NCBI GenBank assembly: GCA_021736205.1
Contig: JAIPGF010000004.1
Location: 1 to 64,000, forward strand
Direction of reading: 5' to 3'
DNA length: 64,000 bases
Source of the DNA: Candidatus Izemoplasma sp.
Lineage (GTDB): Bacteria > Bacillota_I > Bacilli_A > Izemoplasmatales > Izemoplasmataceae
Shown piece by piece: positions 48,022 to 63,257 of the stretch. The notes beneath the pieces were generated by a model, which ran no database searches, was not told where the DNA came from, and saw only the letters and a program-made list of their open reading frames with translations. Each line of letters starts with the position of its first letter. The stretch's first letter is position 1. The position numbers and the translations under genes were made by a program.

Positions 48022-48369
48022 GGGGTTGTTAATGGATTCGACAAGGTAAATAGAGCTTGATAAGCATGCCACCATGTGGGTGTAAAACACAAGGTTAAAT
48101 ATAACCGGAAATAATCAAAATTACGCTTACGCAGCTTAAATAAAGTTGCGATCTCACTGCGTTGTAGCCTAGTACGATGTATTGAGAATAGTGATCTAGG
48201 ATATATCTATGCTGTGCCATCTTAACAAAGTAGATGAATTTAATAAGATTAGTTAGTGCTGTGGCCGTCTATCTCCAAGGCGCTAATGAAACTAAAGGAT
48301 AGACTACGCATGTAGAAAATGAAGTGTCGTTTATTTTGGACAGGGGTTCAACCCCCCTCAACTCCACCA
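48022..48369 (+). ncRNA. ssrA: Transfer-messenger RNA
   Basis: Starts GGGGTTGTTAATGGATTCGAC and ends with a T-arm (GGTTCAACCCC) and CAACTCCACCA. The acceptor stem keeps the G3-U70 alanine identity pair. The tag frame ends YAYAA and then TAA at 48137-48139. Read back to GGA at 48107 it gives a tag near GNNQNYAYAA, though the resume codon is my estimate. The final AA fits ClpXP-type degrons. Trans-translation frees stalled ribosomes. Confidence 0.97.
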
Positions 48370-48382
48370 ATAGTACCCGCGT

Positions 48383-48573: not shown

Positions 48574-48677
48574 TATCTGTATATTTATATGCTTTATTTA
48601 TATTGAGAACTAATAAGGTATTAGAGGTATTTAAGGTATTATGATATAATGAGATATTAAGAAACTTGGGGGTTGCT

Positions 48678-49412
48678 ATGAATAATAATTTTCTAGAAGA
48701 AAGATTATCTTTTTTCAATAATAAATATCAGGTTATTACAGTTATAATTATTCAGTTTCCATTTTTGTTTGGATGGATTCAAATAAACAATGTTGAAAGT
48801 GTCTTGGCCTTAAACTCATTAATGTTTATTTTTGTCGGATTATTGGGGTCTTCACTTGGCCTTGCTTTATCAGGTTTTAAAAAAGAAAATCCAGATAAAG
48901 AAGTAATTGATCGAATTTGGTTTCTGAAAAAAAATGAAATATTTTCAAAGGCATCTAACTATATCATAAACAGTATTGAAGATGTACAATATGGAGATTA
49001 CTATAAAAACATGAAATCAACCTGGAAAAATCTTTACTACAAAACTACAAGTGAATATTGGAATAGCATTTTTTTAACTAGTAAAAGAGATATAACGAAA
49101 CCAAGTGTTTGGGAAATAATCAAAAACGTATTTTTTGTTTTAGTAATTACTCTTTTTAATCAGCTATATTTGTCTTTTGATAATGGATATGTTCTTTTTT
49201 CAATGTTTGTAACAGTGGTAATGGGTGGAATATATGGTTATAAAGTTGGAAAGTCAATTTATTTCAATAAAAGAATTTTAATATCAAAACTGTTAGTATT
49301 GTTGTGTGATCAATTCATTTTAACTGAGGGATTAAATTATAAACCAATTGAAGATGAGGAAAAGTACTCTTTACATGGGTATGATATCTATAAGGATAAA
49401 AAAGTTGAGTAA
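48678..49412 (+). CDS. Membrane protein of unknown function
   Basis: A 244-aa product with hydrophobic segments near residues 17-33, 42-62, 147-165 and 170-190, i.e. two hairpins of membrane helices separated by an 80-residue Lys/Asn-rich soluble region. I do not recognise a family. The ATG at 48678 follows GGGGG; the longer TTG start has no ribosome site. It is the first gene after ssrA and has its own promoter, so it may be cargo of the element or lie outside it. Confidence 0.55.
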   Translation: MNNNFLEERLSFFNNKYQVITVIIIQFPFLFGWIQINNVESVLALNSLMFIFVGLLGSSLGLALSGFKKENPDKEVIDRIWFLKKNEIFSKASNYIINSIEDVQYGDYYKNMKSTWKNLYYKTTSEYWNSIFLTSKRDITKPSVWEIIKNVFFVLVITLFNQLYLSFDNGYVLFSMFVTVVMGGIYGYKVGKSIYFNKRILISKLLVLLCDQFILTEGLNYKPIEDEEKYSLHGYDIYKDKKVE

Positions 49413-49609
49413 TACTTAATTTTGCAAATAAATAAAGCTAGTTCCAAGATGGTTGCGATTATGTTGGGTCATCTTATGTTTAATTACGTATAATTCAACT
49501 AGGGCTGTATTTGTTTTTTAGCAAGACAAACTAAGACATTCGGTTGTAAAATATCATGGAGACACTTTTGTTAATTAGGAAAGATGGAAAATATATTATC
49601 AATATGATG

Positions 49610-49640
49610 AAGCATCTACAACTATAGTGGATGCTTTTTA
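49610..49640 (+). terminator. Terminator before the Ntn-hydrolase gene
   Basis: AGCATC..AC and GT..GATGCT form a stem followed by five T, eight bases before the ribosome site of the next gene. The rest of 49413-49609 shows nothing clear. Confidence 0.55.
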
Positions 49641-49659
49641 ATATGAGAGGAGTGATAGT

Positions 49660-50247
49660 ATAAGCATAGTAATTGGGTTAATACACAATGGAGTAGTATA
49701 CATGGCAGCGGATTCACAAATAACATACAACGGTTCAAAAATCGTGACTGTTGAAAAAGAAAATTTAAAAATTTGGCATCCAGATGATAAGGACAATGTA
49801 ATAATTGGTGCCAGTGGATCTGTTAGGGAAATCAATGTAATAAAAAGCTTGGGAAACATTTTAGATGAAGTTGATTATCTTAGTGATGAAATCAACTTAA
49901 CCAGCTTGACGAACAAAACAGTAAAAGCCATCTTTAAAGAGTTAAAGGAACATGGTGTCGTCAAAGATGAGAACCCAGTAAAAATGAATAATCGCTACTT
50001 GATAGCCTATAAGAGTAAACTGTATTTAGTCACAACGGATGGTGCGGTAGTAAGGATGAGTGACTATGCTGTAATAGGGTCTGGATCTTATGAAGCGATT
50101 GGTGTACTTATAAACAATAGAACGGATAATCCTAAAGAAGATTTGTTACATGCCATTCGAGTTAGTATAAAAAACGATATTCACTGTGATTTTCCAATTG
50201 TCCTAACAAACACAAAATCTAAAGAAATTGAAATTATAAAGGAGTGA
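49660..50247 (+). CDS. HslV-like Ntn hydrolase (proteasome fold), apparent ATA start
   Basis: A 195-aa product resembling the HslV/proteasome beta fold. Counting from the Ser that follows the first codon, NG falls at positions 9-10 and Asp at 17 (AADSQ), exactly as in HslV where Thr1 is the nucleophile and Asp17 is catalytic; a Lys (ENLK) follows. The in-frame ATG at 49702 would delete strand 1 and the nucleophile. Between the upstream in-frame stop (49639) and 49702 there is no ATG, GTG or TTG, but AGGAG (49648-49652) sits seven bases before ATA at 49660, and Met removal would expose Ser. No HslU-type ATPase is nearby. Substrate unknown. Confidence 0.7.
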   Translation: MSIVIGLIHNGVVYMAADSQITYNGSKIVTVEKENLKIWHPDDKDNVIIGASGSVREINVIKSLGNILDEVDYLSDEINLTSLTNKTVKAIFKELKEHGVVKDENPVKMNNRYLIAYKSKLYLVTTDGAVVRMSDYAVIGSGSYEAIGVLINNRTDNPKEDLLHAIRVSIKNDIHCDFPIVLTNTKSKEIEIIKE

Positions 50248-50277: not shown

Positions 50278-50583
50278 ATGGGAAAACCCCATAAGAATTA
50301 TCAAAAGAAAAAGTACTATCCAAAGAAAAAGAACCATAATAATAACTATCCAAAGGTAAGACAAAATCCACCAAATATTTTTGGTGGATTTTTTAATGGA
50401 AACTTAGCAGAAGGAATGAACTTTGGTGGAAAAGATCATGAACTATCTGGGTTTGTACGTCGAGAAGTGTTTATGAAAGACAAAGATGGTAATATTCAAA
50501 AAGCGCGTGAAGAGCAGTTCTTTAATAGTAGCAAGGATCCAATGACTATTCGAAACAGAGATGATAATAATGGACGATTCTAA
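50278..50583 (+). CDS. Small basic protein of unknown function
   Basis: A 101-aa protein. The first 35 residues are rich in Lys, Tyr and Asn, followed by PPNIFGGFFNGNLAEGMNFGG and an acidic, Arg-containing C-terminus. Likely nucleic-acid binding from composition only. GAAAGG precedes the ATG. The end overlaps the radC-like gene. Confidence 0.5.
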   Translation: MGKPHKNYQKKKYYPKKKNHNNNYPKVRQNPPNIFGGFFNGNLAEGMNFGGKDHELSGFVRREVFMKDKDGNIQKAREEQFFNSSKDPMTIRNRDDNNGRF

Positions 50584-51058
50584 GGGGAGCACGTTAAGTA
50601 TAGTGACATTGCACATGGAAGTAGTAAAAGAGATAAAGTTACACGAAGAAGTCATTAGTACGCAGTATAAAGCTGGTGATATTTTTATCAGTGAAATCGG
50701 TAATAAAGATAAAGAACATTTTTGTATCCTTTGTTTAGACTCTAAAGGAAAACCGACTCACTTTGAAATTGTGCATATTGGTACCCTTAATCAAACATTA
50801 ATTCATCCAAGAGAAATATTTAAAACAGCAATCCTTAGTAATGCATCAAGTATTATAGTAGGACACAATCATCCAAGTGGAGATCTCATACCATCTAGTC
50901 AGGATTTGAAAAATACTAAACACATTGTTCAAGCTGGTAGTTTGCTGGGAGTAACTGTGCTAGACCACATCATTGTGAATGATACAAGTATACATTCAAT
51001 TCGAAATAAACAACCATATTTGTTTGAAAGGAGTGACAATGAATCAGAAGAAATTTAA
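50570..51058 (+). CDS. RadC-type JAB/MPN domain protein
   Basis: A 162-aa short RadC of the kind found on integrative elements and plasmids. The JAMM metal motif is intact: GHNHPSGDLIPSSQD (His-x-His then Asp). The helix-hairpin-helix domain of chromosomal RadC is missing. The start is uncertain: ATG at 50561 or 50570 has no clear ribosome site, while AAGGGGAG at 50582-50589 lies before an in-frame ATA (50600), GTG (50603) and ATG (50615). Confidence 0.8.
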   Translation: MDDSKGSTLSIVTLHMEVVKEIKLHEEVISTQYKAGDIFISEIGNKDKEHFCILCLDSKGKPTHFEIVHIGTLNQTLIHPREIFKTAILSNASSIIVGHNHPSGDLIPSSQDLKNTKHIVQAGSLLGVTVLDHIIVNDTSIHSIRNKQPYLFERSDNESEEI

Positions 51059-51479
51059 TCAACTTGGGTTTATTATGTTATTAACTGCTAGTGATAATCA
51101 ATATGAACTACAAATCTATAAGGATAAAATCGTTGGAACATTTGAACCTATTACCCTACTACCCCCTATTACTACCCTGTTAAGCTCTATTAAAGGGGGT
51201 ATTACTACGCTAGTAACTTCAGATATTTTTGATGTTACTAACTTAGAATTTCCTATACGTAGTATGGAAAAACATACCCTAGCAAGGGTTCAAGATTTGA
51301 TTGTTCAAGGGGTAATACCGTACCTAGCAACAGTAGCGCAAGAAGAACAAGAAGCAATAATGATACAATCATCATTTAGTAGTAATAATCCGTCACTAAC
51401 CATTAGTGCGGGATTACTAAACGATGTTCAAATATTACTACTTGATATACATAAGAAAAAGGAGGAGATAGTATCTTAA
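51039..51479 (+). CDS. Protein of unknown function in the mobile region
   Basis: A 146-aa protein with an N-terminal segment like a small beta domain (LGFIMLLTASDNQYELQIYKD) and repeated ITTL/LLSS motifs in the middle. No family recognised. The ATG at 51039 follows AAGGAGTG and lies 20 bases inside the end of the RadC gene. Its own 3' end carries the ribosome site of the OB-fold gene. Confidence 0.55.
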   Translation: MNQKKFNQLGFIMLLTASDNQYELQIYKDKIVGTFEPITLLPPITTLLSSIKGGITTLVTSDIFDVTNLEFPIRSMEKHTLARVQDLIVQGVIPYLATVAQEEQEAIMIQSSFSSNNPSLTISAGLLNDVQILLLDIHKKKEEIVS

Positions 51480-51757
51480 ATCAAGTCATAGTAGTTGGAT
51501 CTGTGGTATCCATCAAGGATTCTGATAAGGAGAAAATCATTACGCTATCAGTAAGCAATCCACACGCACAAGATAATGAAACCGAACTAATACCGATTCA
51601 TTTGGGTAATGGACTATTAAAATCAATAGAATATGTCAATACCGGATCGACATTAGGGGTTAAAGCACGTATTCATATAGATGATAATGGGAAAGTGAAA
51701 ATCGTCGCTGAAAAAATGACGTTTATTAATACGAAACGTGACGAGGACGATGAATGA
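51473..51757 (+). CDS. SSB-like OB-fold protein, apparent ATC start
   Basis: A 94-aa product beginning (M)LNQVIVVGSVVSIKD when read from ATC at 51473, which matches the usual SSB start M(L/I)NQVxLVG. Later strands (KIITLSVSNP, VNTGSTLGVKARIHID, KIVAEKMTFI) follow the OB pattern. GGAGG (51461-51465) lies seven bases before the ATC. The first canonical in-frame start is GTG at 51503, which would remove beta-strand 1. It ends in an acidic DEDDE tail, like the acidic tip of SSB, and overlaps the next ATG. Confidence 0.65.
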   Translation: MLNQVIVVGSVVSIKDSDKEKIITLSVSNPHAQDNETELIPIHLGNGLLKSIEYVNTGSTLGVKARIHIDDNGKVKIVAEKMTFINTKRDEDDE

Positions 51758-52080
51758 GCGAAATAAAATATACATTTGATAAAGAAAACCGTTATCTAAC
51801 GAAGGGAATCAATCAAGAGTTACCACTTGAACTTCAAGTTTTACTATGGAGCATGGTGGGTCATCTAGTAGATTCAACAACACCAACTGATTACTTGCAG
51901 GTTTTTAACTTTGATATGAAAGATGAGGTATTAATCATAAAACATAGTCAAGAGCAACCGGAATATGTCAAAGAACATAAGGTTAAAATGAAGCAAAACT
52001 ACCGTTCTATCGTTGGTCGTAAAGTTTATATCATTGACGATATAGAGCATTGTACCATGCTTTGGAGTAATGAATACTAA
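51754..52080 (+). CDS. DUF960 family protein
   Basis: A 108-aa protein with RYLTKGINQELPLELQVLLWSMV near the N-terminus, DYLQVFNF, HSQEQPEY and VYIIDDIEHCTMLWSNEY, which fit DUF960, a family found mainly on plasmids and integrative elements. Function unknown. Overlaps both neighbours, so it is translationally coupled. Confidence 0.72.
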   Translation: MSEIKYTFDKENRYLTKGINQELPLELQVLLWSMVGHLVDSTTPTDYLQVFNFDMKDEVLIIKHSQEQPEYVKEHKVKMKQNYRSIVGRKVYIIDDIEHCTMLWSNEY

Positions 52081-52369
52081 GCAGAAAGTAGTACATAAAG
52101 ATCGAATTCTCAAAATAATAGCAACTCGTTTAGGTTTAGAGGTAGGAGCGGTAGAAGAGGTAATGGAGATGTATCGTAAAGTCATAATTGAACATCTTCG
52201 GAAAGATTTCAAGGTCAGTATGGATGAACTATACACAATAGACCACAAAAAAAGAGCGGGATACACATTTCGCTCAGGACTAAATCAAAAGAAATATAAG
52301 GTAGCAAGCAAACATGATATAAAAATCATTGTTCAAAGTCAGTTTATTGATGACATAGCAAGAAGATAA
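52070..52369 (+). CDS. HU-like DNA-binding protein, divergent
   Basis: A 99-aa protein whose plan fits HU/IHF: an N-terminal helical part (KDRILKIIATRLGLEVGAVEEVMEMYRKVIIEHLRK), a beta arm with basic residues (DHKKRAGYTFRSG) and a C-terminal helix. The usual RNPxT arm tip is not conserved. Last gene of the plus-strand run before a terminator. Confidence 0.5.
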   Translation: MNTKQKVVHKDRILKIIATRLGLEVGAVEEVMEMYRKVIIEHLRKDFKVSMDELYTIDHKKRAGYTFRSGLNQKKYKVASKHDIKIIVQSQFIDDIARR

Positions 52370-52398
52370 CGAGTTGAGCTCGTTACCTTCTTTTTTTT
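52367..52398 (+). terminator. Terminator after the HU-like gene
   Basis: TAACGAG/CTCGTTA stem, CCTTC, then eight T. It lies between convergent genes. Confidence 0.65.
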
Positions 52399-53854
52399 AT
52401 AGATACTGTTGCATTGTAGCAATTTCAGTGCGTTTGTTGCTCAAATCAGAATCGGTATCAAATATTTTATCTAACAAATAATCTGGTAATATTAGTAAGT
52501 CATTAGAGGATAATAAGGTGCGAAAGTTTTTTCTCAAAGTTTCATAGCTTGTCGTAGTTTGATTCAGTAATTCTCGTACATAATCCTCTTTGTTATTTAA
52601 ATAAGTGATATGTAGCTTTAATTCTGAAGAAGTAGTACCTATTTTTTTTAGTTCATTTGCAAAGTCAACAAGAGTACCAGTATACTTAATCAAATTCTCT
52701 TCAGTTCTTGGCCGTTTTGGTAAAAAGTAATGGAAGTCGTGTTCTTTCTCGAAGTAAGCAAGATAGTCAGCGACCAACTCTAGTTCATTTTTTGTGAGCC
52801 CAAATATATTTTTTTGCAGTTGATCAATAATCTCATTTACAATGGGATATCTGTTTTGATATGTCTTGAGTTCCACTTGAACTTCTGTAGAATCCAAACT
52901 CGCATTATTAATCTGATTATACGTTTTTTTGATATAATCACGTACTTTCGTAAACTCCATAAGGACTTCAGGGTATTTACGGAACAATTCTCTGGTTACA
53001 CTACCTGATTCTGTTAAATATAAGTGGATGACACGCTTACCATAAGCATCAAAGTCATACTTCTTATAGAAATGCCGAACATGTTCATAAAAACTAAGTT
53101 CTCGTTCTTTTAAAAGGTTAAATATTACCTCAATAGCTTCAGGGTTTGACTTGAAAACAGTAGTTCCGTTTTCAACAGTTTTTATTTTCCCAACAAAATT
53201 ATCTATTATCAGATATTTACTATGTGGAAAAATATACTCTTCTTTCATATCTCTTGAATAGTAACGCTTACCATTCTTAGAATATACATGATAACCATCG
53301 AGTTTATAGTGATTTTCGATTTGATCAATAAGACCTCCCCCGTAAATATACAATGGTCTAGTAGTATCGCAAATTTCTCTTGCCTTTTTCTTTAATTTGT
53401 CCAAATGCAAATCAAAATTGAAATTAATTATGTCACTAGTCGATTTTTTAAATACTTCTAGTTCACTCGATTCAAGGACCAAAAGGCTATAAACTAGCTT
53501 GAAGAAATTTTTGAATTGTACTTTCTTGGTGTACTCATCATTCTTAATCTCTGATAAAAAGTGTTTTTGAATCTCGTTAGCAATTTGAATGCAGTTATCT
53601 ATTTCTTCCTTATAAGGCGAATCATAAGGAAGTTCATTGTTTTTCCAACTAGGGTCTGTCTTTTCAAAGTCTAACAACAAGACACCATAATTTGGTATAT
53701 CACTATGATCTGAAAGTTGCAGTTTTGCACTTTCTGTTTCATTTGGAGGCAAGTTTCGAGCAAATAATTGAAAAGCTTTTTTTGGGAGATCATTTTCTTT
53801 TTCTCCTTCAAGGTATCTGTTTAAATAATACTCATACTTAGCGTTTAAACTCAT
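52397..53854 (-). CDS. Inverted gene of unknown function in the mobile region
   Basis: A 485-aa soluble protein, the only minus-strand gene of the element. No signal peptide, membrane helix or nucleotide-binding loop is visible. It has a middle beta-rich part (YIYGGGLIDQIENHYKLDGYHVYSKNGKRYYSRDM) and a helical C-terminal half rich in Glu, Lys and Leu. I recognise no family. Single inverted genes between the replication modules of integrative elements are often cargo (defence or fitness genes), which is only a contextual hint. Confidence 0.6.
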   Translation of the reverse strand: MSLNAKYEYYLNRYLEGEKENDLPKKAFQLFARNLPPNETESAKLQLSDHSDIPNYGVLLLDFEKTDPSWKNNELPYDSPYKEEIDNCIQIANEIQKHFLSEIKNDEYTKKVQFKNFFKLVYSLLVLESSELEVFKKSTSDIINFNFDLHLDKLKKKAREICDTTRPLYIYGGGLIDQIENHYKLDGYHVYSKNGKRYYSRDMKEEYIFPHSKYLIIDNFVGKIKTVENGTTVFKSNPEAIEVIFNLLKERELSFYEHVRHFYKKYDFDAYGKRVIHLYLTESGSVTRELFRKYPEVLMEFTKVRDYIKKTYNQINNASLDSTEVQVELKTYQNRYPIVNEIIDQLQKNIFGLTKNELELVADYLAYFEKEHDFHYFLPKRPRTEENLIKYTGTLVDFANELKKIGTTSSELKLHITYLNNKEDYVRELLNQTTTSYETLRKNFRTLLSSNDLLILPDYLLDKIFDTDSDLSNKRTEIATMQQYL

Positions 53855-53995: not shown

Positions 53996-55768
53996 ATGCT
54001 AGAACTTACAGCAAATTACAAAACCAAGAAGTTCGATTTGATTGATGAAAAGAACAATGTTATTCATGACGTAGCCAATCTTCTCATTCCAATCGAAATC
54101 ATTGGTGCCTTAGAAGAAGGCAGTGAGACATTCATGACGCTTGAGACGTATGAACAAGGTCAGTTGAGAACTTTTGATGTCAAGTTATCTGAACTAAGTT
54201 CCCAAACTGATTGTAACAGGGTCTTAACGAACAACCTTTACTTCATTAACTTCAAACTCGTGAATCACTTACGACAGTTTATTACCTATCGCTTGCAGGA
54301 GTTGCAGGCGAAAAACCGAATCTCTTTTAGCCATAGATCATTAGGTTTTTGGCAAGATATCGATGATTCAACTATTTTTTTATTAGGAAAGAACCAAACG
54401 AAACGAGGACCATCTACTTACTATAAAGATACGCTTTCGTTTCAGCAAGGCAAGGAATCAGATTACATGGAGTTTGTGATATCTGAAATCCTACCTTACC
54501 CAAACATGCAGTTAGCATTTGTAATGGGGTTAAGCAGCGTAACAGGATCTTACCTAAAGGATTACGCAGATGTAGGTACGATTGTTCTCAACTTCTGTGG
54601 AGCGTCCAGCACTGGTAAGTCTACCACAGCACAGTTCATCGCATCACTTTGGGCAGATCCACGAATCGGTAATGATTCACTTGTTCGTACTTTCAATACT
54701 ACACAAGGTGCGATGATGCAATCAATCGAAGGCTTTAACGGTGTACCAATCATTCTTGATGACGCTACTACGGCAGCCTACATGAATAAGACTACCTTAG
54801 TCTATCAGTTAGCACAAGGAGAAGCACGTGCTAGACTCGTTGACTATGGCCGAAGTATAAGACAAGGTCAAGAATGGTCGGGTTGTGCAATCATAACAAG
54901 TGAACTACCAATCCTTTCTGAATCAGAAACGAGACAAGGATTGATAGCTCGAGTGATTGACACGAACGATATGGTATGGACTGACAGTGCTGAACATGCA
55001 GTTCGAATGAAAAATTTTATCAAAACGAATTATGGGCATCTTGGTGAAAGTTTCGCATCATACTTTCTAAGTCTTACTGATAACGAAATAAAGGTGTCTT
55101 ACCAAGATGCAAAAGATGAAGTTCTTCAAGCTATTGTCAAAAAAGACAATCTGACAGAACGAATTGTAAACAAACTTGCGATTATTTACCTGACTTCAAA
55201 GCTTGCGATGAAACATTTTGACTTTGAACTAGATTTAGAGAGCATCAAAGCAACTCTCATTGAATTTGATCAGGTGGATGTAGAGAATCGTCATATTGCT
55301 ATCCGTGCACTGGATGCTATTAAGCTCTATATTCAACAGAATCATGCAAAGTTCGATAAGTACGATCCAAATGGGACACAGCTTGAACACTCAAAAGGGT
55401 CTCTTAGCGGGATTATAACGTTCTATAAAGATACGATGGATGTCGCAATTCCTTCAGAGATAGTGAAATCCATCCTAAGAAACAATCGTATCTATGAATA
55501 CAAACCAGTACTCAAATATTGGGGTAGTAAAGATATCATCGCACAACAGAGCGGTCGAAACACGATAAACTTGTGTCACTTGGATTCACGTGCTGTGAAA
55601 TTCCACCTTGAACGAACTGCTGAAACCATGATGCCTTGGCTTTATGAAGCACCTAACTTCTACTCTACTGATGCACGTCCTCCAATCTATAAAGAGAACT
55701 ATAATAACGATGAAGATATCAAAGCCATATTTGAATCTTTTGATAGGGATGAAGGACATGCGAACTAA
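53996..55768 (+). CDS. DUF927-family ATPase, probable element replication protein
   Basis: A 590-aa protein. Residues about 120-330 carry the DUF927 core: HRSLGFWQDI, Walker A FCGASSTGKSTTAQF near 200, and a Walker B-like PIILDDAT near 252. DUF927 ATPases resemble helicase-type replication proteins of plasmids, integrative elements and phage satellites. The C-terminal 200 residues may bind DNA but show no clear motif. GGAG precedes the ATG by six bases. Confidence 0.78.
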   Translation: MLELTANYKTKKFDLIDEKNNVIHDVANLLIPIEIIGALEEGSETFMTLETYEQGQLRTFDVKLSELSSQTDCNRVLTNNLYFINFKLVNHLRQFITYRLQELQAKNRISFSHRSLGFWQDIDDSTIFLLGKNQTKRGPSTYYKDTLSFQQGKESDYMEFVISEILPYPNMQLAFVMGLSSVTGSYLKDYADVGTIVLNFCGASSTGKSTTAQFIASLWADPRIGNDSLVRTFNTTQGAMMQSIEGFNGVPIILDDATTAAYMNKTTLVYQLAQGEARARLVDYGRSIRQGQEWSGCAIITSELPILSESETRQGLIARVIDTNDMVWTDSAEHAVRMKNFIKTNYGHLGESFASYFLSLTDNEIKVSYQDAKDEVLQAIVKKDNLTERIVNKLAIIYLTSKLAMKHFDFELDLESIKATLIEFDQVDVENRHIAIRALDAIKLYIQQNHAKFDKYDPNGTQLEHSKGSLSGIITFYKDTMDVAIPSEIVKSILRNNRIYEYKPVLKYWGSKDIIAQQSGRNTINLCHLDSRAVKFHLERTAETMMPWLYEAPNFYSTDARPPIYKENYNNDEDIKAIFESFDRDEGHAN

Positions 55769-55964
55769 AGTAGATAGAGATGAGCTAGTAAGGCAAAAAG
55801 GAAAGGTATCAGTGCCAGAAGAACTGAATCGTTTCGTACTAGATTCAAAGATCAAACAACGGATGCAGGAACTGTTATTTGAAGCAATAGCAAGTCAAGT
55901 ATCAGAGGACCCTAAAAAGGGTCCTTTTTCTATGGAAGGAGAAGAAAATGAGAGAACTGCGTAA
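55758..55964 (+). CDS. Small protein upstream of the first serine recombinase
   Basis: A 68-aa hydrophilic protein (MRTKVDRDELVRQKGKV...) overlapping the DUF927 stop and the recombinase start. No family recognised. Its codons at 55906-55929 also form an intrinsic terminator, so transcription into the recombinase may end within this gene. Confidence 0.5.
   Translation: MRTKVDRDELVRQKGKVSVPEELNRFVLDSKIKQRMQELLFEAIASQVSEDPKKGPFSMEGEENERTA
55906..55929 (+). terminator. Terminator inside a small gene, before the recombinase
   Basis: AGGACCCT and AGGGTCCT pair with a short A-rich loop, followed by T5. It lies within the coding region of the 68-aa protein, 19 bases before the recombinase ATG. Confidence 0.7.
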
Positions 55965-57492
55965 AGAAGAAATAGCAAGACTTCATATGATAGCAAGCAA
56001 GAAGAGCAAAATGAAACTTCATGTTTCTATCTATGCGAGAAAGTCACGCGAAGACAAGACTGAAATGTCACTACCTACCCAAATCGATGAATGTAAGGAG
56101 TTCATCTCAAAATATGACTCCTTACTTGATATCGAAAATGTTGAAATTTTTAGCGAAGATAACGTTTCTGGATTTTTTCTTGATCAAAGAGATGAGCAAA
56201 ATCGATTGATTGATTCTGTTCGTGACAAGATGACAGACGTAATCGTGGTATCAAAGAGTGATCGATTCTCAAGAGACTCAGTAACGATGGCCTCATTGAT
56301 TCGGACAATTGAGAAGCACGATGCGTACTTGATTGTTCTAGATGACCTAGGGGATGAAAGTGCAGCAGGTATTTTAATCAAACAGATTCAATGGGCTACC
56401 AATGAGTTCCAAGTTAGAAGAAGTGCAGAAGATGTAATGAAGGTGCATTCGCGGTTAGTTGATAACGGCTATACCGTAGGCGGACCTGGTAACTACGGAT
56501 ATGATGTAAAAAATCGAAAGTATGTGATCAACCCAGAAGAAGCAATCGGGGTAGATTTGGTTTTTTCTATGTTCTTAGAAGGAAAAAGCTATAAAGAAAT
56601 CGTAGATGAGCTAGAAACTAGAGGTATTCAACCTCGTAAAACCAACCGGTTTTCCTTTGCTACAATCCACAGTATTCTTACAAATGAACGAAACTGCGGA
56701 ATCAGTACTTGGAATAGTCACAAAAAACGAAAAGATAGAGATCGAGTTATTAAGGAATTGTTCCCAGAAGTAAAATCAGAAGAAGTTGTGCCTGAAGCAA
56801 TCATTTCAAAAGAGCGCTTTGACTTAGTACAAGAATTGCTAAAAAGTAGAGCAACCGGAAGAACGATAAAGGGAAAATCTCCCTATCTGCTAACTGGACT
56901 GCTTGAATGTGGCAGTTGTAATGAATCCATAACAGGTAACTCTCAACGATCAGGGCGTAAAAAGCAACGATATAGAACCTATGAATGTAAGAATCACAAG
57001 AAAAAACATGGTGGAAACTGTTCAACTAAGCCTATTCGTGTTGAATACCTTGAAGACATAATAAAGGATCAAATCATGACAATCATGAACAACTCTATAC
57101 AGGAAGTTGGAATTGAACAGGAAATAGTGGATTCATACTTAGCTCAGGAACGAAATACCTTAGTACGTTTGAAACGAGAAAGAACAGAATACCAAAATCT
57201 AATCAGTAAAATGACCGTGGGGTTATATCAATCCGTATCCCCTACAGTAAAACGAGCAACTGAGCAAGAAATTGAAAGATTAGACACAGTTTTGACTCAA
57301 ACAGATAACAGAATCAAAGAAATTGAGCATAAAATAGACACGATTGTTACCACTGTTGCCACTGCTACCACTAAAAAGCTTGATAAAGAAGAAATTTTCA
57401 TCAATGATGAGCTGTCAAAACGTATTATTAGAACCTTTGTTTCAAAAATAGAGGTAACAAATCAAGAAATTACAATAGATTGGAAGCAGTAA
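55948..57492 (+). CDS. Large serine recombinase (first)
   Basis: A 514-aa site-specific integrase. The catalytic domain starts LHVSIYARKSRED with the nucleophilic Ser near residue 33, and includes SKSDRFSRDSV. The recombinase domain follows (PGNYGYDVKNRKYVIN...), then a zinc ribbon (CGSCNESITGN ... YECKNHKKKHGGNC) and a coiled coil near 390-460. All parts are present, so it is probably active. It likely excises and integrates the element. GGAAGGAG precedes the ATG. Confidence 0.9.
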   Translation: MRELRKEEIARLHMIASKKSKMKLHVSIYARKSREDKTEMSLPTQIDECKEFISKYDSLLDIENVEIFSEDNVSGFFLDQRDEQNRLIDSVRDKMTDVIVVSKSDRFSRDSVTMASLIRTIEKHDAYLIVLDDLGDESAAGILIKQIQWATNEFQVRRSAEDVMKVHSRLVDNGYTVGGPGNYGYDVKNRKYVINPEEAIGVDLVFSMFLEGKSYKEIVDELETRGIQPRKTNRFSFATIHSILTNERNCGISTWNSHKKRKDRDRVIKELFPEVKSEEVVPEAIISKERFDLVQELLKSRATGRTIKGKSPYLLTGLLECGSCNESITGNSQRSGRKKQRYRTYECKNHKKKHGGNCSTKPIRVEYLEDIIKDQIMTIMNNSIQEVGIEQEIVDSYLAQERNTLVRLKRERTEYQNLISKMTVGLYQSVSPTVKRATEQEIERLDTVLTQTDNRIKEIEHKIDTIVTTVATATTKKLDKEEIFINDELSKRIIRTFVSKIEVTNQEITIDWKQ

Positions 57493-58347: not shown

Positions 58348-59907
58348 ATGAAACAGAAAAAAGCAGTATGTTACTGTAGATATTCATCAACGAATCAAAG
58401 AGAGGAATCCATTAACAAACAGTTAGATAAGATTGAAGAATACTGTAAGAGAAACAACCTGAATTTAGTCGATAGGTATATTGATGAAGCGAAAACAGGT
58501 ACAAATGATAATCGGGATGGCTTTCAACAAATGATGGAAGATGCCTATATGTCAGATTGGGATTTTGTTGTGGTTTACAGAATGAACCGCCTAAGTAGAT
58601 CAGTGGCCGATAGTATGCATTACAAGAAACAGTTGAATAAATTAGGTATACGTATACTAAGTGTTATTGAAGATTTTGATGAAACGACACCTGAAGGAGG
58701 ATTCTTCAACTTGATTACGATGGGTATCTCGGAATTTTACGTAAAAAATTTGGCCAGAGAAGCATTTGCTGGATTAATGCAAAATGCGAACAAAGCCATT
58801 CATACAGGAGGTATTCCGCCATTAGGGTTTAATCTAAATGAGGAGAAAAAACTAGTAATAAATAAAAAAGAAGCAGAAGCTGTCCGCATGATATTTGACT
58901 TAGTCTTAAAAGATTATAGTTATGCAGAGATTGCACGAATATTGAATAAACTAGGATATCGTACAAAGACTGGTAAAAAGTTCAAATCACACTTAACAGA
59001 TTTATTACAAAATCGAAAGTATATTGGGGAATATGTCTATAATCGTAGTGCCAAAAAGAATGTTGATGGTACTAGAAACCACCATAAAAATAAACCTGAT
59101 AAAGATATCATCAGGATTCCAAATGCAATACCTTTCATTGTAAACAAAGAGAAATTCGATAAGGTACAACGACTATTGCAAAAGAGAAAACATAGTCAAT
59201 ATAACCGAGGTCCAAAAAGTAAGTATCTACTATCTGGATTGATTCGGTGTGCGAATTGCGGGTCAAGTATTACTGGACATACACAGTATACTGGATCTAG
59301 CAAACATTGCCGGATTATTTACCGTTGTAAAACAAAAAAACTAGAACCATGTCCAACAAAGCCAATCAATATTGAGTACATGGATCGATTTGTCATACAA
59401 GAAATCAATCGAATATTAAGTAAAGATTCAGCTAAATTAATTAAAACAGAGATAAACAATCAACTGAAACAAATCAAAATCAAGTTAAACTCTCTAAATG
59501 AAAAGTATGACAAGGATATCGCTGATAACAATAAACAGTTAATGAATCTAACCAATCAACTAGATAGTCACAGTAAAAGTATTGATACGTTACTAAATGA
59601 ACAGATACAAGATTATATTAATACGATAAGAGAAATCAAATACGAGCAATCATTAATAGCTTCAGACCTAAAAGCAATTAATACGGTATATAAAAAAGAC
59701 ATTGTAAGTAAACAAAAGTTCTACAAAGATCTATTCAAAGAAAATCGAAAAGAAGCGGTAAGAAATATTGTCAAAGTAATCGAACAAGGAAACGAAATAA
59801 TAACAATTAACATCCTATTGAATGCATTTATTCAGTACGATTTGAATGAAGAACTAATATACCGAATCAATATTGATAGAGACATTTTAGCATGGAACAA
59901 CTTCTGA
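58348..59907 (+). CDS. Large serine recombinase (second)
   Basis: A 519-aa integrase distinct from the first. The catalytic domain starts AVCYCRYSSTNQREES with the Ser near residue 12, and contains YRMNRLSRSVADS. A recombinase domain follows (GGIPPLGFNLNEEKK...), then a zinc ribbon (CANCGSSITGH ... CRIIYRCKTKKLEPC) and a long coiled coil at 385-450. Fully formed, probably active. GGAGGTG precedes the ATG. Confidence 0.9.
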   Translation: MKQKKAVCYCRYSSTNQREESINKQLDKIEEYCKRNNLNLVDRYIDEAKTGTNDNRDGFQQMMEDAYMSDWDFVVVYRMNRLSRSVADSMHYKKQLNKLGIRILSVIEDFDETTPEGGFFNLITMGISEFYVKNLAREAFAGLMQNANKAIHTGGIPPLGFNLNEEKKLVINKKEAEAVRMIFDLVLKDYSYAEIARILNKLGYRTKTGKKFKSHLTDLLQNRKYIGEYVYNRSAKKNVDGTRNHHKNKPDKDIIRIPNAIPFIVNKEKFDKVQRLLQKRKHSQYNRGPKSKYLLSGLIRCANCGSSITGHTQYTGSSKHCRIIYRCKTKKLEPCPTKPINIEYMDRFVIQEINRILSKDSAKLIKTEINNQLKQIKIKLNSLNEKYDKDIADNNKQLMNLTNQLDSHSKSIDTLLNEQIQDYINTIREIKYEQSLIASDLKAINTVYKKDIVSKQKFYKDLFKENRKEAVRNIVKVIEQGNEIITINILLNAFIQYDLNEELIYRINIDRDILAWNNF

Positions 59908-60001: not shown

Positions 60002-60026
60002 TTTAATAACGCGTGAGGTGATAAAA

Positions 60027-63000
60027 ATGGGGAAAACTTTTGATAAAAACAGGTTAGGGCAGGTTGGGGAGTTCTTAAGAGATAATATTAATAAGGATTC
60101 TAAGGTAGATGTTGTTTCATCTATATTTACCATATATGCCTTTGATAAATTAAAAAAACAATTAAACCAAACAGAGTCTGTTCGGTTTCTTTATAATGAA
60201 CCGACTTTTTTAGATAATTCTTTTATTGTTAATAAAGATAGTAAAGTATTCGTGTTAGAAATGAAAAATAGAGAGAGGAACATGTCTGAATTTGATCTTG
60301 AGATTGCATTAAAAAACAAACTTGATCAACCTACTGTTGCTCAAGAGTTTTATAATTTTATTAATAATAAAGTGAATGTTAAATCAGTTATAAACAAGAA
60401 TGTTATAAACCATAAATTTATACAAGTTAAAAACACGAATGAAAAAAACTATTTACTAGATGGGTCTAATCTAGATTTTTCATTAGAGGGATTAGGGTAC
60501 AAAAACAGAGTCATGTTTGACTTTAAAAAATATGAAGATGATCCAGGGATTATTAACGATTTCTCTAATTTTTTTGATGAAATATGGAATAATCAAGATG
60601 TAACTAAAGATGTAAAAGCGAATATGCTCGAACACTTAACAACTTTGTATAAAGAAAATGCACCAGAATTAATTTATTACTTAACGCTTTACCATATGTT
60701 TAAAGACATACTAATCAATCAAGATGATTATACCAGAATTAAGGAAAAGACTGGTATTCATAATAGTAAGATATGGAATATGCTCTATAACTTTCAACAA
60801 GATGCTGCTGTAGGTGCTATCAAGAAGATTGAAACCTATAATGGTTGTATTATAGCTGATTCAGTTGGACTGGGGAAAACGTTTGAAGCCTTAGCTATTA
60901 TCAAATACTATGAGTTACGCAATGATAGAGTATTAGTGCTGTCACCTAAAAAACTGCGAAGTAACTGGACATCATTCAAACAAAATTCAACAAGCAATAT
61001 GTTGGCTGAAGATCGCTTCAACTACGATGTGCTAAATCACACCGACTTATCACGTGATGGTGGTTATTCGGGAGACATAGATTTATCAACAATAAACTGG
61101 GGCAATTACGATTTGTTGGTAATAGATGAATCACACAATTTTAGAAATGCACCAGCTGTTAAAGATAGAATCACAAGATACGATAAATTAATGGATTGGA
61201 TTATTAAAAGTGGTGTGAAGACAAAAGTGTTGATGTTATCTGCTACACCAGTAAATAACCGTTTGGCTGATTTGAAAAATCAAATTAGATTTATCACAGA
61301 AGATAACGACCATGCATTAGCGGAATCAACTAATATTGAAAGTGTCGAAAGAACATTAACAAATGCCCAAAGACGATTTAACGAATGGGGCGAAAGACCA
61401 GATGGTTTACGTTCTACTGATGCATTACTACAAATGCTTGATTATGATTTCTTTAATTTGTTAAATTCATTAACCATTGCCAGAAGTCGTAAACACATTC
61501 AAAAATACTATGATACAAAAGATATAGGAGAGTTTCCAAAAAGGTTAACGCCTATTACAATCAAATCAGATATCGATGCACTAGGAGAGTTTCCTTCCTT
61601 AAGTAGTGTCAATGGTGACATAGCAAAACTAACCTTACCGATATATTCACCAATGTTATATCTTTTACCTACAAGAGTAGCAGAATATGAAGAAAAGTAC
61701 GGACAAACAGTAAAAGGTGGAACAAGTTCTTTTACCCAAACTGATAGAGAGCGTAGTTTGGTTAATTTAATGCGCGTAAACATTTTAAAACGTCTTGAAA
61801 GTAGTGTTGATGCATTCCGGTTAACCATTGGTAGAGTATTAACCCAAATCGATGATGCGTTGCAAAAAATCGAAAATCATAAATCGTTTGATTATGATTC
61901 TATTAATGATGCGGATGATGAATGGGAAGATGTAGAAGTTGGTAAAAAAATTACTGTGTTACTAAAAGATATGGATAGAATTCGTTATAAAAACGACCTT
62001 CTTGAAGACAAAGCCATACTGCAAAGACTCTTGGATGAATCATATAAAGTTACTGTTGATAGAGATAAAAAACTGCTTGATTTAAAAGAGCAAATAACAA
62101 ATAAAATAAAGAATCCTATTAATCCAAATAACAAAAAAATGATTATCTTTACATCATTTAGTGATACTGCTGAATATCTCTATAAAAACATTAGTGATTG
62201 GGTCAAAGATAACTTCGGAGTAAACTCTGGATTAGTAACTGGATCATCAGCACTTAAAAACAATGCACCAAATGTAAGAAACCATTTTGAAGATATATTG
62301 ATTCATTTTTCACCAGAATCTAGTAAATATATCAGCAAAGAGGGTTCAATTGATATCTTAATCGCAACCGACTGTATTAGCGAAGGACAAAATCTTCAAG
62401 ATTGTGATTACTTGGTCAATTATGATATTCACTGGAATCCAGTCAGAATCATTCAACGATTTGGTCGTATAGACCGTATTGGTAGTAAAAATAAAGTAAT
62501 CCAGCTTGTTAACTTCTGGCCGAATATGGAGTTAGATGAATATATTAATCTTGAATCGAGAGTTAAGAACCGAATGGCTTTACTTGATTTATCAGCGACA
62601 GGTGAAGATGACGTATTAAGTGCAGAAGGAAAAGACTTAGCTTACCGTAAAGAACAATTAAAAAAACTTCAAGAAGAAGTTGTCGATCTTGAAGATATTT
62701 CAGGTGGTATTTCAATCACTGATTTTACATTGGATGATTTTATTATATCGCTAGAAAAGTATATGAAGGAACATCCTAGTATGTTAGAAGATTATCCAAC
62801 AGGCATACATGCAGTAACCAACATACCAAATCAAGTTAAAGATGAAGCAGTTGAAGGCGTCATTTATTGTTTAAAACAAATGAACTACGATGTGAATGAG
62901 AAAGCAGCTAATTCGCTCTATCCATTTTTCTTAGTCTATGTGAAACAAGATGGTGACATTCATATTAGCAATAAAAGTCCTAAACGTATACTGGACCTAT

Positions 63001-63257
63001 TTAAAAGTATGACTACTGGTAAAAGCGATGTGTTAAGGGAAGTCGTTGAATCCTTTAATAAGGAAACAAAAGATGGAACAAAGATGGATAAATATACTGA
63101 ATTATTAGAGAAAGCCGTATTTGACATTAAGGGAATAGCAGAAGAAAAAGGTGTTCAATCACTATTCCGATTAGGACGATCAACCATTAAAACCAACCAA
63201 GTTAAAGGATTAAATGATTTTGAACTTGTATCATTTTTGGTGATTAAAGATGAGTAA
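60027..63257 (+). CDS. SNF2-type helicase of a restriction/defence system
   Basis: A 1076-aa superfamily 2 protein. An N-terminal nuclease-like or adaptor region (residues 1-250) contains VFVLEMKNRE, in which Glu-x-Lys follows a beta strand as in PD-D/ExK folds. The helicase has Walker A ADSVGLGKTFEAL near 281, LLVIDESHNFRN (DESH), LSATPVNN, and the C-terminal lobe TDCISEGQNLQDCDYLVNYDIHWNPVRIIQRFGRIDRIGS. Related helicases accompany DUF4391 proteins and DNA methyltransferases. ATG at 60027 follows GAGGTG. It overlaps the next gene by eight bases. Confidence 0.85.
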   Translation: MGKTFDKNRLGQVGEFLRDNINKDSKVDVVSSIFTIYAFDKLKKQLNQTESVRFLYNEPTFLDNSFIVNKDSKVFVLEMKNRERNMSEFDLEIALKNKLDQPTVAQEFYNFINNKVNVKSVINKNVINHKFIQVKNTNEKNYLLDGSNLDFSLEGLGYKNRVMFDFKKYEDDPGIINDFSNFFDEIWNNQDVTKDVKANMLEHLTTLYKENAPELIYYLTLYHMFKDILINQDDYTRIKEKTGIHNSKIWNMLYNFQQDAAVGAIKKIETYNGCIIADSVGLGKTFEALAIIKYYELRNDRVLVLSPKKLRSNWTSFKQNSTSNMLAEDRFNYDVLNHTDLSRDGGYSGDIDLSTINWGNYDLLVIDESHNFRNAPAVKDRITRYDKLMDWIIKSGVKTKVLMLSATPVNNRLADLKNQIRFITEDNDHALAESTNIESVERTLTNAQRRFNEWGERPDGLRSTDALLQMLDYDFFNLLNSLTIARSRKHIQKYYDTKDIGEFPKRLTPITIKSDIDALGEFPSLSSVNGDIAKLTLPIYSPMLYLLPTRVAEYEEKYGQTVKGGTSSFTQTDRERSLVNLMRVNILKRLESSVDAFRLTIGRVLTQIDDALQKIENHKSFDYDSINDADDEWEDVEVGKKITVLLKDMDRIRYKNDLLEDKAILQRLLDESYKVTVDRDKKLLDLKEQITNKIKNPINPNNKKMIIFTSFSDTAEYLYKNISDWVKDNFGVNSGLVTGSSALKNNAPNVRNHFEDILIHFSPESSKYISKEGSIDILIATDCISEGQNLQDCDYLVNYDIHWNPVRIIQRFGRIDRIGSKNKVIQLVNFWPNMELDEYINLESRVKNRMALLDLSATGEDDVLSAEGKDLAYRKEQLKKLQEEVVDLEDISGGISITDFTLDDFIISLEKYMKEHPSMLEDYPTGIHAVTNIPNQVKDEAVEGVIYCLKQMNYDVNEKAANSLYPFFLVYVKQDGDIHISNKSPKRILDLFKSMTTGKSDVLREVVESFNKETKDGTKMDKYTELLEKAVFDIKGIAEEKGVQSLFRLGRSTIKTNQVKGLNDFELVSFLVIKDE

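Follow-up and report, generated by a model that had tools for sequence, protein, structure and literature searches.

An SCC-like cassette of Candidatus Izemoplasma carries a proteasome-like Ntn hydrolase gene that probably starts at AUA

Introduction

Autoregulation of infC is known in Escherichia coli. In Staphylococcus aureus, AUA start codons were reported in 2026 at infC, ccpN, and citZ; the infC and ccpN starts were seen by ribosome profiling, and reporters are available for ccpN and citZ (PMC13009471). Extended Shine-Dalgarno (SD) motifs are present at infC, ccpN, and the AUU-started cvfC1, and reporters for cvfC1, ccpN, and citZ gave ∼10% of the AUG level, with ccpN reaching up to 30% in rich medium. 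The ccpN AUA is conserved to Bacillus subtilis (PMC13009471).

Proteins with the proteasome fold are likewise described from mobile DNA. AAH/PPH and the related group I proteasome homologues occur in phages and their hosts, have active sites of the Thr1/Ser1-Asp17-Lys33 type, and spread with mobile elements; the family's catalytic residues, as published, are Thr1/Ser1, Asp17, Lys33, and Gly47 (PMC8665760). Here we describe a gene for a protein of this kind, located in a 64,000-nucleotide stretch of a draft Candidatus Izemoplasma genome (contig JAIPGF010000004.1, positions 1 to 64,000; hereafter the window), whose start codon appears to be ATA. The gene shares the AUA start, the extended SD (as at infC and ccpN), and membership of the broad Bacilli group with the S. 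aureus examples. Unlike the ccpN AUA, its AUA is seen in a single genome only and lies on a mobile cassette.

Results

The Ntn gene product matched the Pfam Proteasome family PF00227 (34.8 bits, cut-off 22.4) and PHROG 1040, the peptidase HslV family (4e-12), whereas its score against the HslV equivalog TIGR03692 was 18.9 bits with a cut-off of 157.75. The surrounding ORFs were searched for an HslU-type ATPase, and none was found. An AlphaFold2 model was built from an alignment of 34 sequences (31 viral relatives, two from related cassettes, and the window protein itself); its mean pLDDT was 90.7 and its pTM 0.88, with residues 1-10 at ∼97. Foldseek comparison of the model with the PDB returned proteasome beta subunits, BPH (TM 0.73/0.76), and Thermotoga HslV; phmmer against the PDB returned nothing, and the matches came from fold comparison alone. 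The equivalents of the published catalytic set in the window protein are Ser1, Asp17, Lys36, and Gly49. Across the 34 aligned sequences Asp17 and Lys36 are invariant, Gly49 is nearly so, and position 1 is Thr or Ser. The fold, the type of active site, and the association with mobile elements are shared with AAH/PPH and the group I homologues, and the fold together with a nucleophile beside the start codon is shared with HslV, whose equivalog cut-off is not reached. By homology and predicted fold, the product is thus a proteasome-like Ntn hydrolase and not HslV proper: the first-pass annotation had called it HslV-like, but it falls short of the HslV equivalog and has no adjacent HslU partner gene.

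The reading frame of the Ntn gene begins after TAA at 49639-49641 and contains no ATG, GTG, or TTG before 49702. Its codons from 49639 are TAA TAT GAG AGG AGT GAT AGT ATA AGC ATA GTA ATT GGG TTA ATA CAC AAT GGA GTA GTA TAC ATG. AGGAG at 49648-49652 is followed by 7 nt, ATA at 49660-49662, and AGC, a Ser codon; from this Ser1 the protein reads SIVIGLIHNGVVYMAADSQ, with Asp as residue 17. The first-pass annotation had described each of these elements (the empty interval between stop and first ATG, the AGGAG seven bases ahead of ATA, the adjoining Ser codon, and the Asp at 17), and all of them are present. Its further claim that an AUA start directly creates an active site does not stand, since a nucleophile right after the start codon is the ordinary layout of the proteasome-like family.

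Two other in-frame codons were considered as starts. ATG 49702 has an SD of only -5.9 kcal/mol, and a protein begun there would lack both the nucleophile and strand 1. Starting at the second ATA (49666) would likewise cost the protein its nucleophile; the SD of this codon is weaker (-11.9 kcal/mol), with the AGGAG core 13 nt away.

The starts of relatives were compared with the ATA. In Geobacillus phage E3, a B. licheniformis plasmid, and phages of Psychrobacter and Vibrio, the tblastn matches begin at the window Ser1, and the annotated coding sequences of these relatives start with ATG exactly one codon ahead of the Ser1 equivalent. Among IMG/VR relatives the start codon is ATG in 78 of 80 and GTG in the other 2, a count that is biased because the N-terminal MTC was part of one of the two search patterns. 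Cellular relatives from a profile search begin with Met-Ser or Met-Thr where the start is readable; phage relatives have Met-Thr-Cys (MTCIVGL), in contrast to the Met-Ser of the cassette proteins. The closest relatives are L014, L016 (from Acholeplasmataceae bacterium UBA6181), and L017 (from a Bacillota MAG); they are 37-40% identical, lie in syntenic cassettes, and have ATG AGC or ATG AGT at the position of the ATA. Residues 1-13, ahead of ATG 49702, are 46-62% identical to these cassette orthologues, compared with 35-39% for the remainder. The N-terminus conserved upstream of the first ATG, as noted in the first pass, is thus shared by relatives that start at the ATA-equivalent codon with Ser or Thr next, and homologues that begin at the downstream ATG and lack the nucleophile were not what the alignment revealed. 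These starts, and the fact that the 13 residues ahead of ATG 49702 are conserved at least as well as the rest, rule out ATG 49702 as the ancestral start; judged from the alignment, an ancestral ATG has become ATA in the window. No relative shares the ATA, which depends on one base in one draft genome of 58 contigs. A pattern search of viral contigs that allowed A or G (R) as the last base of the start codon found no near-identical copy with ATG or ATA, and neither close relatives nor a second copy of the element turned up when viral and genome contigs were scanned with the single protein.

SD strength was calculated as the energy of the RNA duplex formed with the 16S tail of the same genome, after verification of the 16S 3′ end (...GGATCACCTCCTTTCT), and base rates were taken from a 423-kb sample (27% of the genome) containing 272 gene-like ORFs. 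The SD at ATA 49660 gives -14.0 kcal/mol, which is matched or exceeded by 1.8% of the 272 ORFs. Only 1 of ∼2,600 sampled ATA trinucleotides has an SD as strong, so that the match exceeds what chance would give. The SDs of the three ATG-started cassette orthologues are ordinary (-8.9, -9.7, and -11.1 kcal/mol; 0.40-0.72 of the ORFs of the window genome are stronger). When candidates were read by eye, the Ntn gene was the only one among the 272 ORFs to combine a strong SD with a near-cognate codon lacking an adjacent or comparable canonical start. The absence of a second such gene in the sampled 27% shows that near-cognate starts of this type are rare in this genome. The gene thus has two features of bacterial AUA-started genes, an extended, well-placed SD and the lack of any canonical start that fits the conserved N-terminus.

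AUA was also seen at infC. The sequence is TAA GGA GGT GTA AGC ATA AAA CGA in three genomes of the same genus and AGGAGGTGTAATC ATA AAG in the genome of the window itself (the own genome); the infC SD ranks in the top 1.1% in one of the three (G003) and in the top 0.4% in the own genome. To judge by its sequence, the genus starts infC at AUA. For the own genome this start is likely rather than certain, because an in-frame ATG lies further upstream and an ATC is adjacent. Like the Ntn gene, infC of the genus combines AUA with a very strong SD (GGAGGTG, then ATA); unlike it, infC is a core gene in which the non-canonical start is conserved. Across the order, the infC start alternates among ATA, ATT, and ATC, with the GGAGGTG-type SD retained (loci L099-L126).

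The leader ahead of the gene is conserved among the related cassettes (window 49568-49640; L016 7491-7570; L017 7490-7565; L014 8041-8105). The promoter pattern TTGNNN-N18-TATATTAT is present in all four and has a single match in the 819,744 strand-bases of the window-genome sample. Within ∼12-15 nt downstream of it, three of the four leaders (the window, L016, and L017) have a strong hairpin with a U run at the same place, which is weak or absent in L014. Transcription is expected to begin just ahead of this hairpin. A scan for consensus intrinsic terminators did not list it, and "terminator-like" in Table 1 therefore denotes resemblance only.

The gene is part of a ∼22-kb Ccr/Cch cassette that resembles SCC and has the 3′ end of ssrA as its insertion site (Table 1). 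Similarity to the same-genus genome G003 ends at the ssrA 3′ end, and the 17-bp direct repeat found there has only two copies in the 77-kb contig C5; the element measures ∼22.4 kb from repeat to repeat and extends past the window. Two Ccr-like large serine recombinases, a DUF927 helicase, and DUF960 are shared with SCC/SCCmec (CcrA/B, Cch). In contrast to SCC/SCCmec, the cassette carries Ntn, RadC, and HU-like genes, is inserted at ssrA and not rlmH, and has Ccr and Cch scores far under the SCC cut-offs (CcrB 120-162 of 900 bits, Cch1 187 of 700 bits). With neither CcrAB/CcrC nor Cch at equivalog level, it is not SCC in the strict sense, and its likeness to SCC is one of homology and layout only. 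N6/N4 methylase and Res subunits beyond the window resemble a type III restriction system. In L014, L016, and L017 a DUF3846-type gene lies ahead of the Ntn gene (the Pfam match was tested for L014); the window cassette has no DUF3846 gene, and its conserved leader directly adjoins the Ntn gene. Elsewhere on the contig, an inverted stretch of 24 bases at C5:74398-74421 is 91.7% similar to the G003 ssrA end; it lies close to further serine recombinases (L015 14663-17357) and possibly marks a neighbouring second element.

Table 1. Coordinates of the Ntn gene, its start region, and the surrounding cassette in the window.
Feature	Position	Strand	Basis or remark
ssrA (tmRNA), integration target	48022..48369	+	ARAGORN
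attL-like repeat CCCTCAACTCCACCAAT	48355..48371	+	exact 17-bp repeat; second copy at contig C5:70819-70835, outside the window
248-aa protein (TTG start)	48666..49412	+	ORF; no Pfam, PHROG, or NCBIfam match
Conserved promoter TTGTTA-N18-TATATT (then AT)	49568..49597	+	common to four related cassettes
Terminator-like hairpin with U run, just ahead of ribosome-binding site	49609..49637	+	-14.1 kcal/mol, z -5.2
Extended Shine-Dalgarno GAGAGGAGTGAT	49645..49656	+	core AGGAG 49648-49652; 16S-tail duplex -14.0 kcal/mol
Putative ATA start codon	49660..49662	+	aligned with relatives' ATG start
Proteasome-like Ntn hydrolase, mature Ser1-Glu194	49663..50247	+	PF00227, PHROG 1040, AlphaFold2, Foldseek
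Downstream ATG, first in frame	49702..49704	+	rejected as start
Conserved 101-aa basic cassette protein	50278..50583	+	beside the Ntn gene also in L014, L016, L017
RadC-like JAB protein	50561..51058	+	PF04002, 134 bits; syntenic in related cassettes
Conserved cassette protein	50979..51479	+	syntenic position
Small conserved cassette protein	51503..51757	+	syntenic position
DUF960	51754..52080	+	PF06124, 89 bits
HU-like DNA-binding protein	52070..52369	+	PF00216, 33.8 bits
485-aa cassette protein	52397-53854	-	no Pfam match
Cch-like (DUF927) helicase	53996..55768	+	PF06048; NF047345 5e-55, below cut-off
Ccr-like large serine recombinase 1	55948..57492	+	
Ccr-like large serine recombinase 2	58348..59907	+	
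Cassette cargo: SNF2-like helicase, DUF4391, N6/N4 methylase, Res subunit	window 60018-63257 and L015 3251-9003		

Discussion

From these comparisons we consider it likely that the Ntn gene is genuinely and functionally, if weakly, started at AUA 49660. AUA is plausible as a working start because of the strength of the SD, the AUA of infC in the genus, and the AUA starts of S. aureus. The conserved promoter would yield an mRNA starting just before the hairpin-and-U leader, whose hairpin, like the promoter, is recognized by conservation. The extended SD GAGAGGAGUGAU is computed to pair so that it would hold the 30S subunit with the AGGAG core 7 nt ahead of AUA, and initiator fMet-tRNA would pair with AUA by two of its three bases, making initiation weak and presumably sensitive to IF3. 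By analogy with S. aureus, the expected output may be about a tenth of the AUG level. Removal of fMet by deformylase and Met aminopeptidase would then expose Ser1 as the nucleophile of an active site whose residues are assigned by alignment. The protein would serve the cassette, probably by cleaving, at low dose and with peptidase or amidase activity, a protein of the cassette or of the host. The AUA probably arose by ATG-to-ATA mutation in the window lineage, with the strong SD compensating.

The likelihoods given here to a real and functional start, to an error, and to a real but damaging change are judgements and not measurements. A consensus or assembly error, by which the organism would have ATG at 49660-49662 and an ordinary gene, is in our view unlikely. 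It would fit a draft genome in 58 contigs, and since relatives with readable starts all have ATG (or GTG), one wrong base would account for everything; but an error would strike a random gene, whereas this one has an SD that only 1.8% of the sampled ORFs equal or surpass, and the remainder of the ORF is open and conserved. Real non-canonical starts, at an estimated few per bacterial genome, are also likely to be commoner than consensus errors in start codons. The coincidence of a top-2% SD counts equally against a fresh null mutation, in which the ATA would be real and the gene either silenced or reduced to a truncated, nucleophile-less protein from ATG 49702. We regard such recent damage as distinctly improbable: the start is unlike that of all relatives, and the DUF3846 gene present in three related cassettes is missing, so that the operon head has been rearranged, but the other codons are intact, the catalytic residues are all retained, the SD is unusually strong, and AUA works in S. 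aureus (PMC13009471) and, judged by sequence, at infC in the genus. Entry by another route, either through a mini-ORF from ATG 49643 to TAA 49661-49663 (a stop that overlaps the ATA codon as AUAA) with a -1 shift or reinitiation, or at the second ATA, is very improbable, as ATG 49643 has a U run in place of an SD, inspection revealed no slippery heptamer, and ATA 49666 has the lost nucleophile and the weaker, more distant SD described above.

If initiation at AUA 49660 is functional, the codon might also be an evolved control, in which an infC-type AUA with an extended SD ties the dose of an operon-head peptidase to the host IF3 level or growth state. We put this forward as a doubtful extension only, and the same doubt covers its companion element, in which the promoter-proximal hairpin would act jointly with the AUA as a second control.

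The AUA start here is rare but of a known kind: the first-pass annotation was right to call such a start very unusual as far as rarity goes, but it is not unprecedented, given the infC of the genus and three S. aureus genes (infC, ccpN, and citZ). If initiation at AUA 49660 is real, the very few bacterial genes that start at AUA are joined by one from a mobile element, which provides an example of a start change coupled with a strong SD. It would also supply gene finders with a signature, a top-percentile SD with a near-cognate codon and a conserved N-terminus, for genes that are otherwise truncated; programs limited to ATG, GTG, and TTG (compare the ORF call at 49702) would give an enzyme without its active-site residue.

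Proteasome-like N-termini were also observed in two other genomes, where three adjacent ORFs (L003 351-2070 and L010 351-2073) begin with MSLI/MSLV, M(F)I.L, and MSVN/MSIN, respectively; the second and third of these Ntn-like ORFs look divergent and are perhaps inactive.
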